A DNA stretch of 14,848 nt from Ignavibacteriaceae bacterium (lineage in GTDB: Bacteria > Bacteroidota > Ignavibacteria > Ignavibacteriales > Ignavibacteriaceae). The notes under the pieces were generated by a model. That model saw nothing but the letters and a program-made list of their open reading frames with translations, searched no databases and had not been told where the DNA came from. The translations under genes and the position numbers were made by a program. The stretch covers positions 1 to 14,848 of the forward strand of contig JALHTS010000733.1 in assembly GCA_022865965.1 (NCBI GenBank), read 5' to 3'. Shown piece by piece: positions 1 through 2,425 of this stretch (positions are counted from its first letter, which is position 1; every line of letters starts with the position of its first letter).

Positions 1-705
1 ATTAAAAAAGTTGAAGATGTAAATGATTTTATCTTTCATATAAAACTTCATCAGGATTTTACTCACAAAAGAAAATTTAATGAACAGAATATTAAAGCTG
101 TCCGGTACAATCTTGATTTACTAAAAAAAATGGAAAGACTTGGCGGATTACTCATTCAGTTTCCATATTCATATTCGTTTGATGGAACTTCTGTTTCATA
201 TATTCAAAGGCTGAAAGATATTTTTCCTGATATAAGCTGTTCTATTGAAGTTCGTCATTCAAGTTGGAAGAATAATCGGGTATACGAATTCTTTAAAGAA
301 AATGATTTAACATTTTGCACTATTGATCAGCCCCAAATTGGACAGGCAATTGAGTTTGATCCTATAATTACAAATGATAAAGCATACATCCGTTTTCACG
401 GAAGAAATGTTGAAGCGTGGAAAAAATCACTTTCTAACTTTGGCAAGCCACAGACTTATGAAGAGCAAAGTTCACGTTACTGTTATTTGTATTCTCCGGG
501 TGAGTTGATAGAGATTGTACAGAAAATAAAATCTATACAACAAAAAGTTAAAGAAGTGAATGTTATAATGAATAATCATCCACAAGGTGATGCAGTGGCA
601 AATGCTTTTGAGCTGATTCATCTGCTAGAAGAAAAGACAAAAGTTGAAATACCGACTACAATTGTAAAGGCTTATCCACGATTGGAAGAGATATTAGCTA
701 ATTAA
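1..705 (+). CDS. DUF72 family protein, 5' end outside the window
   Basis: The frame is open from base 1, so the gene starts upstream. The visible 234 residues are the C-terminal part of a DUF72 protein, a TIM-barrel family without a settled biochemical role, usually about 240-290 residues long. Visible family signatures are KLHQDFTH near residue 16, LIQFPYS near 50, EVRHSSW near 83, YIRFHGRN near 129, the RYCYLYSPGEL segment near 158 and the closing NNHPQGDAVANA segment near 190. An internal ATG at base 130 would cut away the first part of the barrel and is not the true start. The stop is followed by a run of A and then the left arm of the DUF559 element 18 bases downstream, so any native terminator may have been displaced. 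Family assignment is sure; function is not known. Confidence 0.9.
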   Translation: MKKVEDVNDFIFHIKLHQDFTHKRKFNEQNIKAVRYNLDLLKKMERLGGLLIQFPYSYSFDGTSVSYIQRLKDIFPDISCSIEVRHSSWKNNRVYEFFKENDLTFCTIDQPQIGQAIEFDPIITNDKAYIRFHGRNVEAWKKSLSNFGKPQTYEEQSSRYCYLYSPGELIEIVQKIKSIQQKVKEVNVIMNNHPQGDAVANAFELIHLLEEKTKVEIPTTIVKAYPRLEEILAN

Positions 706-723
706 AAAATATAAATTTAAAAA

Positions 724-769
724 AATCCCCTCCTCAATGAGGAGGGGTGGCACGAAGTGCCGGGGTGGT
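724..769 (+). repeat. Left arm of DUF559 cassette: double hairpin
   Basis: Hairpin 1 pairs CCCCTCCTC (727-735) with GAGGAGGGG (739-747) around loop AAT. Hairpin 2 pairs GGCAC (749-753) with GTGCC (757-761) around loop GAA. Hairpin 2 is bracketed by two direct copies of GGGGTGG (744-750 and 762-768). On the minus strand, hairpin 1 is followed by a run of seven T, which makes it look like an intrinsic terminator for leftward transcripts, although no leftward gene ends here. Confidence 0.8.
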
Positions 770-775
770 GATATT

Positions 776-1150
776 ATGGCTATGAAGAACAACAAAAAAA
801 TATTCAACAAAAAAGAGTGGATGTCTAGAAGAAAAGAACTAAGAAACAACTCAACGTACACAGAAATTTTCTTCTGGCAGCAAGTTAAAAGCAAACAGCT
901 TGAAGGAAGAAAATTTAGAAGACAGACGAGTATTGGTTCTTATGTGGTTGATTTTTATTGTCCGGAAGAAAAACTTGTAGTTGAACTCGATGGGGAAGTT
1001 CATTTTAATGAGGAAGTAATTAAGTTTGATCAGAAGAGGACAGAATACCTGGAGTCATTAGGATTAAAAGTTATTGGATTTGAAAATAATGAGGTGCTTA
1101 AGAATACAGAATATGTGTTGAGTAAAATAAAAGAATATTTTAATAAGTAA
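776..1150 (+). CDS. DUF559 (Vsr-like, PD-(D/E)XK-type) endonuclease-domain protein
   Basis: A 124-residue protein that is essentially one DUF559 domain, a fold related to Vsr and other PD-(D/E)XK nucleases. Visible landmarks are E30 in the first helix (YTEIFFW), the basic KFRRQ strand (46-50), the IGSYVVDFYC strand with D59, the VVELDG strand with E70 and D72, H76 shortly after, and the closing GLKVIGFENNEVLKN segment. All putative catalytic positions are present, so the gene looks intact. The frame stays open upstream to an ATG at 737, but those codons lie inside the left-arm hairpins. The ATG at 776 sits just after the arm, whose GGTGGTG may act as a weak ribosome site. Family assignment is strong; substrate and role are unknown. 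It lies in its own cassette between a DUF72 gene and dinB. Confidence 0.88.
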   Translation: MAMKNNKKIFNKKEWMSRRKELRNNSTYTEIFFWQQVKSKQLEGRKFRRQTSIGSYVVDFYCPEEKLVVELDGEVHFNEEVIKFDQKRTEYLESLGLKVIGFENNEVLKNTEYVLSKIKEYFNK

Positions 1151-1155
1151 ACTTA

Positions 1156-1209
1156 ACCACCCCGTCTTCCGCTTTGCGGAATCCACCCCTCCTTAAAAAG
1201 GAGGGGATT
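1156..1209 (-). repeat. Right arm of DUF559 cassette: double hairpin, terminator-like
   Basis: This is the inverted counterpart of the left arm. Hairpin 2 pairs TTCCGC (1167-1172) with GCGGAA (1176-1181) around TTT. Hairpin 1 pairs CCCCTCCTT (1186-1194) with AAGGAGGGG (1198-1206) around AAA. CCACCCC (the complement of GGGGTGG) stands on both sides of hairpin 2, at 1157-1163 and 1183-1189. On the plus strand hairpin 1 is followed by ATTATTTCTT, a weak T-rich tail that could end the DUF559 transcript before dinB. Confidence 0.8.
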
Positions 1210-1234: not shown

Positions 1235-2425
1235 ATGCGTACAATTTTTCACTTAGATCTTGATGCATTCTTTGTTTCTGTAGAGAGAATTCTCGATCCT
1301 AAACTTAACGGTAAACCAGTAATTGTTGGCGGTGATCCAAAATACGGAAGGGGAGTGGTGGCTGCCTGTTCTTATGAAGCTCGTAAATATGGATTACATT
1401 CTGCTATGCCGATAAGGACAGCTAACAAACTTTGTCCACACGGAATTTATATGCATGGGCATGGCAATGAATACACTCATTTTTCCAAAGCTGTAAAAAA
1501 TATTTTAGAACAATATGCTCCTCTCATCGAACAAGCATCCATTGATGAATATTATCTTGATATGACCGGAACTCAACGAATGTATGGTTCAATGTTTGCA
1601 TTTGCTTCACATATTCAAAAAAAGATTTGGGATAGCCCTGGATTGCCTTGTTCAATCGGAATTGGTAGTAATAAAACCATTGCAAAGATTGGCTCTGATT
1701 GTATGAAGCCAACCGGTATAACTTACATTCTTCCGGGAATGGAAAAAGAATTTCTTGCACCAATGCCTGTTGAAACAATTCCCGGTGTTGGAAAAGTTAT
1801 GAAACAAAGTTTGAATGCAAGAGGAATTTATCTAATTGGTGACATAACAAAACTTCCATCTGATTATTTCTCTGTTGCATTTGGTAAATATGGAGTCGAT
1901 CTCTGGCGAAAAGCTTGCGGTGAAGGAACTGAATATCTTACTATTCAACGAACAAGAAAAAGTATTTCACGAGAAAATACTTTTGGGAATGATGTAACAA
2001 GTGAAGAAGAACTTAAAAACAATTTGTTTTATCTGACCGGAAAAGTTTGCCAGAGTTTAAGAAATAAAGGATGGGAAGCTGCTACAGTTGATATAAAATT
2101 ACGTTACACTGATTTCCAAACATTAACCCGTGCTAAAACAATAAAGCCAACTGATGATGATAAAATTATTTTTGAAACTGCCTGGAGCTTAATGAAAAAA
2201 GCACGCACACGAAGAGTTGGTATTAGATTAATTGGTATTGGCGTCACAAACTTTTCTCCTCTTAATGAACAGGAATATTTATTTGAAGACTACGAAGTAA
2301 AGAGAAAAAAAATGCTAAGAGCAGTTACACGTATCCGTGATAAGTTTGGATATAATTCATTACAGATTGGAAGTGCAAAGTTGGAAAAGGAGGTCGGGAA
2401 ACAAGAAAATTATTTTCAAATGTAA
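1235..2425 (+). CDS. dinB: DNA polymerase IV (Y-family translesion polymerase)
   Basis: A full-length 396-residue Y-family polymerase that copies past damaged or mispaired template bases at low fidelity. The catalytic carboxylates are D8 in the FHLDLDAFF motif and D104/E105 in SIDEYYLD. F13 sits at the steric-gate position that excludes ribonucleotides. The palm motif CSIGIGSNKTIAKIGSD, the helix-hairpin-helix IPGVGK (near 183-188) and the little-finger domain (about 240-350) are all present. The ATG is preceded by an in-frame stop at 1223, so the start is fixed, but the ribosome site is weak (AGAAG). The DUF559 cassette ends only 25 bases upstream, so the cassette either supplies the promoter or has replaced the original one. 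No SOS-box-like palindrome was recognised. The C-terminus has no clear beta-clamp motif that I can name with confidence. Confidence 0.96.
   Translation: MRTIFHLDLDAFFVSVERILDPKLNGKPVIVGGDPKYGRGVVAACSYEARKYGLHSAMPIRTANKLCPHGIYMHGHGNEYTHFSKAVKNILEQYAPLIEQASIDEYYLDMTGTQRMYGSMFAFASHIQKKIWDSPGLPCSIGIGSNKTIAKIGSDCMKPTGITYILPGMEKEFLAPMPVETIPGVGKVMKQSLNARGIYLIGDITKLPSDYFSVAFGKYGVDLWRKACGEGTEYLTIQRTRKSISRENTFGNDVTSEEELKNNLFYLTGKVCQSLRNKGWEAATVDIKLRYTDFQTLTRAKTIKPTDDDKIIFETAWSLMKKARTRRVGIRLIGIGVTNFSPLNEQEYLFEDYEVKRKKMLRAVTRIRDKFGYNSLQIGSAKLEKEVGKQENYFQM

Follow-up and report, generated by a model that had tools for sequence, protein, structure and literature searches.

A DUF559 nuclease gene between inverted intrastrand-triplex motifs: a candidate mobile cassette

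The stretch of DNA analyzed here (the window; 14,848 nt of an Ignavibacteriaceae contig) begins with a gene for a DUF72 protein (1..705, + strand; its 5' end lies beyond the window), and a dinB-type (IMS) DNA polymerase gene follows on the same strand (1235..2425). Between these two lies a small gene (776..1150, +) whose product belongs to DUF559 (Pfam PF04480, 1.2e-33). The open reading frame ends at 1150 and probably starts at ATG 776, giving a protein of ~124 aa. Two arms in inverted orientation enclose it. By fold and triplet reading, the left arm (724..770, +) consists of AAT followed by a hairpin-capped intrastrand-triplex motif: stem 1 spans 727..747 (CCCCTCCTC at 727-735 and GAGGAGGGG at 739-747, around the loop AAT), the 14-nt linker at 748..761 is itself a hairpin (GGCAC-GAA-GTGCC), and a third strand, GGGGTGGTG, occupies 762..770. 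The right arm (1155..1209, –) has the same design, with the third strand GGGGTGGTT at 1155..1163, a 22-nt linker at 1164..1185 that again is a hairpin (TTCCGC-AAA-GCGGAA), and stem 1 at 1186..1206 (CCCCTCCTT and AAGGAGGGG around the loop TTT).

Folding with RNA parameters gave two adjacent hairpins with 3-nt loops in both arms, at z scores of –3.1 to –5.2 over both strands, and in each case none of 200 shuffles folded equally well. A first-pass annotation had described two inverted arms, each with GGGGTGG and a second hairpin, around a DUF559 gene; a stem-1 closing pair that is C-G on the left and T-A on the right; and second stems that are unrelated in sequence, perfectly paired and closed by 3-nt loops. 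Sequence and folding bear this description out. What did not hold was its comparison of the arms to REP-like hairpin pairs: the arms are hairpin-capped intrastrand-triplex motifs, a repeat class already published (PMC4666352). In both arms, a third strand is provided by the terminal block GGGGTGG(T/G), which mirrors the stem-1 purine strand, and the second hairpin sits in the linker between the second and third strands. Left and right, 9 of 9 positions conform to the triplet rules of an antiparallel purine-motif triplex, and the closing pair co-varies on all three strands, being C:G·G in the left arm and T:A·T in the right. Both arms have the pyrimidine (Y) stem, purine (R) stem and mirrored third purine strand (R') by which BoxC/PIT/triplex motifs are recognized.

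Searching the genome that the window comes from for the exact stem-1 pattern of its arm sub-family found these two arms and no others, so this copy gives no hint of having spread locally in recent times. A different arm sub-family matches 5 times in that genome. The genome also contains a second DUF559 copy, which is truncated (L002; G000:C701); by eye, several triplex-type arms precede it and what looks like an unrelated gene follows. Within the window, positions 2459-2533 hold two palindromes, ATTCCCGCGTAGGCGGGAAT and ATTCCCACTTTCGTGGGAAT, with GACA after the second, which by eye resemble a CGTC/TGTC-tagged REP pair of Di Nocera et al. (2013, PMC3733652). Those authors describe their CGTC-tagged palindromic repeats as lacking a dedicated transposase. 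The repeats have, as presented there, a CGTC/TGTC tag and an 8-9 bp stem beginning with AT, and the window arms differ from them in both stem and tag.

The DUF559 protein has the features of a nuclease. Residues invariant between the window protein and 24 of its 29 relatives include E29, D58, E69, D71, H75 and D84. Its structure model (pLDDT 90.6) matched an endonuclease-like protein of Neisseria (3hrl) and the homing endonuclease I-Bth0305I (3r3p); the match to 3r3p was obtained by Foldseek (2.9e-4) and also by profile (5.4e-6). We take 3r3p to belong to the EDxHD group. DUF559 is accordingly described here as a single-domain Vsr/EDxHD-type nuclease, presumably catalytic. A profile study of 2005 reports that Vsr was found with a YcjD profile (PMC1189080). 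VsrA, a DUF559 protein of Caulobacter, is described as needed for the DNA-damage response when a methylase is missing, and a Vsr-like role is proposed for it (PMC12907096). Rfam searches returned two chance-level hits of other kinds near the window element, and, across 16 loci, two tRNAs at gathering level and nothing else; no intron was found in either search. PADLOC gave weak matches only.

Triplex-forming repeats have been noted in bacteria since the 1990s and, to our knowledge, neither their origin nor their mover is known. Holder et al. (2015, PMC4666352) report intrastrand triplex motifs, earlier called BoxC or PIT, in >260 genomes, and show by CD and NMR that E. coli oligonucleotides form the triplex in vitro; as they describe it, a stable triplex was seen neither in cells nor in double-stranded DNA, and mobility activity was never found near the motifs. 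Their motifs and the cassette arms have in common the Y-R-R' double fold-back, triplets of the C-G-G, T-A-A and T-A-T kinds, arrangement in inverted pairs, in many arms a second loop of 3 nt and, in some genomes, a high copy number (PMC4666352). The rule of their search (ITxF), as given, allows loops of 1-6 nt; the window arms have a first loop of 3 nt and linkers of 14 and 22 nt, and hence these hairpin-capped arms fall outside that search. The main text of that paper names neither DUF559 nor endonuclease nor nuclease and describes no nuclease-gene cassette. The triplex repeats are already known, as is DUF559's nuclease fold; the bracketing of DUF559 genes by intrastrand-triplex motifs is new here, and we found no link between the two in print among open-licence full texts.

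The E. coli K-12 genome offers a point of contact. Motif no. 9 of the 23 listed for this strain lies at 1351204-1351239 (PMC4666352), 167 bp from ycjD, a DUF559 gene at 1351407-1351760. The chance of a given gene touching one of 18 sites is ~0.008, assuming ~4300 genes. Inspection by eye of the other side of ycjD showed an inverted repeat of a different type but no triplex motif. Of 5426 E. coli genomes, 3362 cover the ycjD region to 80% or more. Two genomes without ycjD were fetched, and both have an efflux operon in its place. This operon is published, and its authors interpret the difference as operon loss (PMC12817139). We therefore rejected E. coli without ycjD as a clean empty site.

To compare loci, we assembled 140 DUF559 regions: 29 relatives of many phyla from a scan of species genomes, 30 from 296 genomes of the phylum to which the window belongs, searched with Pfam, 80 fetched regions, and the window. 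The Pfam search found DUF559 in 170 of the 296 genomes, with E<1e-15 in 126 (strong DUF559). These 140 are among the best-scoring matches, not all of them; L009 and L107 are one locus, L138 and L140 have long stretches in common, and all were kept in the set. Flanks were long enough in 137. A strict triplex motif was defined as a perfect stem of ≥7 bp, a linker of 1-30 nt, and a third strand without mismatch over the base-proximal positions, of which up to 8 were scored.

Association of the arms with DUF559 was strong. Matching inverted arms (score ≥18) were present in the two flanks of 68/137 DUF559 loci, compared to 5/411 flank pairs mixed between loci and 0/128 pairs taken ~1.1-1.5 kb away. 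Strict motifs likewise lay on both sides of 68/137 loci and on at least one side of 108/137; in distant flanks the corresponding counts were 0/128 and 4/128. The remaining 29/137 loci lacked a strict motif on either side. Requiring a linker of ≤6 nt left 50/137 loci with motifs on both sides and 86/137 with at least one, against an unchanged 0/128 and 4/128 in distant flanks. The 29 multi-phylum loci behaved similarly (both sides in 13, at least one in 22). The density of pyrimidine/purine hairpins was 7.5-7.8 per kb in the 250 nt nearest the domain and fell to 0.08-0.36 per kb at distances above 750 nt; counting on both strands doubles these values. Such hairpins occurred within 350 nt on both sides in 90/140 loci and on neither side in 15/140. 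The catalytic motif was kept in 15/15 of the hairpin-less loci versus 89/90 of those with hairpins on both sides. The association was also specific: strict motifs were absent at loci of two other nuclease families, PDDEXK_3 (PF13366; 0/28) and GIY-YIG (0/22), and in off-site stretches of LeuRS loci (0/28).

The third-strand rule was examined in 288 distinct arms, 271 of which have a G-rich block downstream. This block mirrors the arm's own stem perfectly in 185/271 arms, whereas 200 swaps of blocks between arms gave a mean of 19.6 and a maximum of 30. Reading the block as a direct repeat was rejected (perfect in 50/271). In a held-out test, in which half of the positions fixed the alignment and the other half were scored (209 arms with stems ≥8), G stood opposite G at a frequency of 0.79 and A/T opposite A at 0.81; swapped blocks gave 0.49-0.52 and 0.46-0.50, respectively, and direct matching 0.56 and 0.46. 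Arms with an 8/8 match and a linker of ≤6 nt numbered 113, versus 10.0 after swapping. A looser rule (one mismatch, any linker) was satisfied by 239/271 arms versus 123.7 swapped and is weak alone, so we relied on the strict counts. The 1584 triplets tabulated in 198 arms were C:G·G (1059), T:A·A (262), T:A·T (181) and others (82), a table biased by the fact that arms were kept for matching at least 6 of 8 positions. These data show a three-way covariation extending well beyond the window.

Under the looser rule, two linker designs could be distinguished: 144 arms with linkers of ≤6 nt and 87 with linkers of ≥12 nt, some of the latter surely chance given the loose selection. The window has the long-linker design. 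Long linkers contain a perfect inner stem of ≥5 bp in 47/87 arms, compared to 5.0 in shuffled linkers. Cassettes also tend to have their own arm pair: in 23 genomes with several DUF559 loci, a cassette's own arms matched in 31/57 cases and arms of different cassettes in 16/100. Protein identity and stem identity were weakly correlated (Mantel r 0.146, with 0/500 permutations as high).

We then asked where related genomes lack the element. DUF72 turned up in 47 of the family's 61 genomes; we fetched 30 loci, of which 21 extend as far as dinB. By our reading, three of the 21 DUF72-dinB gaps, the window's among them, hold a DUF559 cassette. Nine are short (6-108 bp) with neither cassette nor triplex arm, one of 33 bp being in the same genus; the short gap L153 may contain a remnant of another repeat. 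Two have arms but no open reading frame, three have a PDDEXK_3 gene and other repeats, with a solo arm in addition in one case, two have a GIY-YIG gene and yet other repeats, and two have another small gene.

Within a single genus, a second site gave a similar picture. We located LeuRS in 57 of 58 genomes; among the 30 loci read, 12 have no insertion, 3 have an intact DUF559 with arm sequences, and 15 have a decayed DUF559. The 12 insertion-less sites have intervals of 40-56 aa, with little room for arms. The right arms of the three intact copies differ by eye at one triplet (C:G·G, T:G·G and T:A·A). In the decayed copies (L175, L178, L181-L184, L186, L187, L189, L191, L192, L197, L198, L202 and L203), E-F/L-SGK-E/K-D replaces E.DG..H, and no arm-like peptide was seen. 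This conserved, catalytically decayed domain derived from DUF559 has possibly been domesticated. The LeuRS insertion seems to replace some codons, and no target-site duplication was seen at the insertions compared. Thus, the cassette is present or absent as a unit, with element-free sites in relatives, and the arm-free DUF72-dinB gaps together with the cramped insertion-less LeuRS sites suggest that arms and gene come and go as one.

LeuRS is one of several host proteins. DUF559 lies in a frame running >110 codons past the domain in 47/140 loci, not all of which are insertions (e.g. L027 and L029). Pfam scans of 8 host proteins from these 47 loci found host domains around DUF559 in all 8; the hosts are LeuRS (at two sites), MetH, methylmalonyl-CoA mutase, RecG, HsdR, HsdM and an Eco57I-type methylase. 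At several loci, the arms are translated inside the protein. Relatives were found in 40 of 72,556 plasmid records (chromosome-length in some of the 15 that were listed) and 2 of 50,697 phage records, so few that the gene is not typical phage or plasmid cargo.

Arms also occur apart from the gene. A pattern for one arm sub-family that placed no constraint on the middle of the third block matched in 74/296 genomes, and the reversed control pattern had 0 matches in each. One genome alone had 216 matches; in these counts, overlapping matches may be counted twice. Most third blocks among the matches listed read GGGTGAGG or GGGAGAGG, which are mirrored forms. The sub-family was present in 59/126 strong-DUF559 genomes versus 15/170 others (Fisher 7e-14), a difference that is partly built in because cassettes bring their own arms. 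Stratification by family (233 genomes, hand-made table) gave p=9e-5 and an odds ratio of 5.0, cassettes' own arms included. More matches than two per DUF559 hit were seen in 23/126 strong-DUF559 genomes versus 14/170 others (p=0.013), and five or more in 28/126 versus 7/170 (p=2e-6); genomes without strong DUF559 had up to 14. Hence solo arms are commoner where DUF559 is present, with a modest excess after allowing for the cassettes' own arms. At least 10 of 20 fetched solo-arm regions contain paired arms ~16-80 nt apart, and by hand count 27 of 43 listed hairpins of such regions lie outside frames of ≥150 codons.

The first-pass annotation had proposed a nuclease-based analogue of REP/RAYT units, and had named three outcomes that would count against it: arms only at this locus, no excess of arms near DUF559, or a DUF72-dinB gap that is always filled. 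None of these occurred, since the arms are not confined to the window locus, their excess near DUF559 is strong relative to distant flanks and two other nuclease families, and relatives have gaps without the cassette. The analogy stands in so far as a nuclease gene with structured inverted ends is found across phyla, along with solo arms and element-free sites. As in REP/REPIN elements with RAYT (TnpA-REP), an enzyme gene lies between inverted structured ends and copies without an open reading frame occur elsewhere; such dispersed copies in gene-holding genomes, as with REPIN/RAYT, were seen for one arm sub-family in relatives. Yet the RAYT enzyme is an HUH tyrosine transposase, whereas the cassette enzyme is a PD-(D/E)XK/Vsr-type nuclease (PF04480). 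REP ends are GTAG-tagged hairpins, whereas cassette ends have a third strand, with no GTAG in either window arm, and in-frame insertion into conserved proteins further sets the DUF559 cassette apart from REP/RAYT.

EDxHD/Vsr-like homing endonucleases such as I-Bth0305I are related to DUF559 in fold and sequence, and sites inside conserved genes are common to both. The cassette differs in that the inserted protein remains part of the host protein, that the inverted ends are structured and that solo copies exist elsewhere. No intron was seen either in the Rfam scans, but free-standing homing endonucleases also exist, and DUF559 may belong to that group even without one.

The two other nuclease families in the DUF72-dinB gap have repeats of their own. 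At L150, L155 and L162, a PDDEXK_3 gene, which we take to be of the GxxExxY type, lies between inverted, internally repeated ends, e.g. CACAGATGACACTGATTTAACAGAT. Matching inverted flanks were found at 12/28 PF13366 loci versus 3/112 mixed and 0/28 distant pairs. At L154 and L156, a GIY-YIG gene is accompanied by repeats of the type GTCACCCTGAGCGGAGTCGAAGGGTGAC; GIY-YIG loci had inverted flanks in 4/22 cases versus 3/88 mixed and 0/22 distant pairs, a weak result. Sample sizes were small in both tests, and a short stretch or misfit length led to the exclusion of 2 and 8 of 30 loci, respectively. Arrays of GIY-YIG matches with identical scores and regular spacing were noted at G236:C1:120132-122135 (5 matches), G294:C1:2945594-2947066 (5) and G132:C1:1733881-1734727 (3).

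On balance, we lean toward the view that 724-1209 is one instance of a widespread mobile element, a nuclease gene cassette whose ends are triplex-forming, and that the BoxC/PIT/triplex repeats are its derivatives without an open reading frame. Each inverted end, when single-stranded, would fold into an antiparallel purine-motif triplex, its design being a Y stem, a short loop, an R stem, a short or hairpin-capped linker and a mirrored R' strand. Arms and gene would be gained and lost together, and paired or solo arms without an open reading frame would make up the BoxC/PIT/triplex repeats of bacterial genomes. We imagine that an arm folds while single-stranded in replication or repair, that the DUF559 protein recognizes or cuts at the folded arm or at the target, and that repair of the break copies in the cassette or a derivative lacking the gene. 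Insertions that survive would be intergenic or in frame in tolerant protein loops, where the nuclease would be produced as a domain within the host protein and could subsequently degenerate. A broader proposal, which we put forward tentatively, casts DUF559 as a structure-guided nuclease that works on three-stranded DNA ends and mobilizes triplex (BoxC/PIT) repeats, copying cassettes and their gene-less derivatives, also in frame into essential proteins, and as one of at least three parallel cassettes of a nuclease with its own repeats (DUF559, PDDEXK_3/GxxExxY and GIY-YIG) in the same DUF72-dinB gap of related genomes. Weak points of the cassette explanation include the DUF559 loci without arms (29/137) and the modest corrected link with solo arms.

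These same points lend some weight to other explanations. A homing-type DUF559 nuclease gene might have invaded triplex repeats that were already there, the arms being its landing site and spreading otherwise. The DUF559 fold is that of a homing endonuclease, arms occur in genomes without strong DUF559, and the solo-arm excess is modest; the closely spaced pairs in at least 10 of 20 solo-arm regions (~16-80 nt apart) resemble a cassette without its gene. But the nine short DUF72-dinB gaps are arm-free, the 12 LeuRS sites leave little room for arms, and within a genome each cassette tends toward its own arm pair, and we regard invasion of this kind as unlikely, if well worth keeping in view. 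The many solo arms, and DUF559 genes found without arms, would also fit arms that spread by themselves or are moved by another enzyme or replication slippage, with DUF559 along as a hitch-hiker or as cargo that maintains itself selfishly. Triplex arms are absent, however, from two other small nuclease families (0/28 and 0/22), which in part have inverted repeats of a kind peculiar to them, and we consider mere cargo a decidedly poor bet.

Two further explanations require no mobility of the gene. DUF559 could be a stationary mismatch-repair or defence gene whose own nicking makes its neighbourhood accumulate repeats, in keeping with the Vsr-like role proposed for Caulobacter VsrA (PMC12907096) and the weak PADLOC matches. 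Its scattered locations, and presence or absence at the same site, including the in-frame LeuRS insertions, speak against this, and we consider it very improbable. Arms that adjoin the gene ends and fold well with RNA parameters could, lastly, be transcription terminators or RNA hairpins flanking an ordinary gene. A third strand has no role in a terminator, however, the arms are translated within proteins at several loci, and Holder et al. state that RNA cannot adopt purine-motif triplexes and that terminator activity is absent from PIT elements (PMC4666352); this explanation is scarcely credible.

A nuclease gene bracketed by triplex motifs in many phyla, and lying beside 1 of the 23 motifs of E. 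coli K-12, provides a concrete candidate for the mover of these repeats, one that can be tested in the laboratory. If the cassette explanation is true, it would represent a new kind of mobile element, with triplex DNA ends and an enzyme that is not a transposase. It would also account for the additional nuclease domain found in some bacteria in LeuRS, MetH, RecG and restriction subunits.
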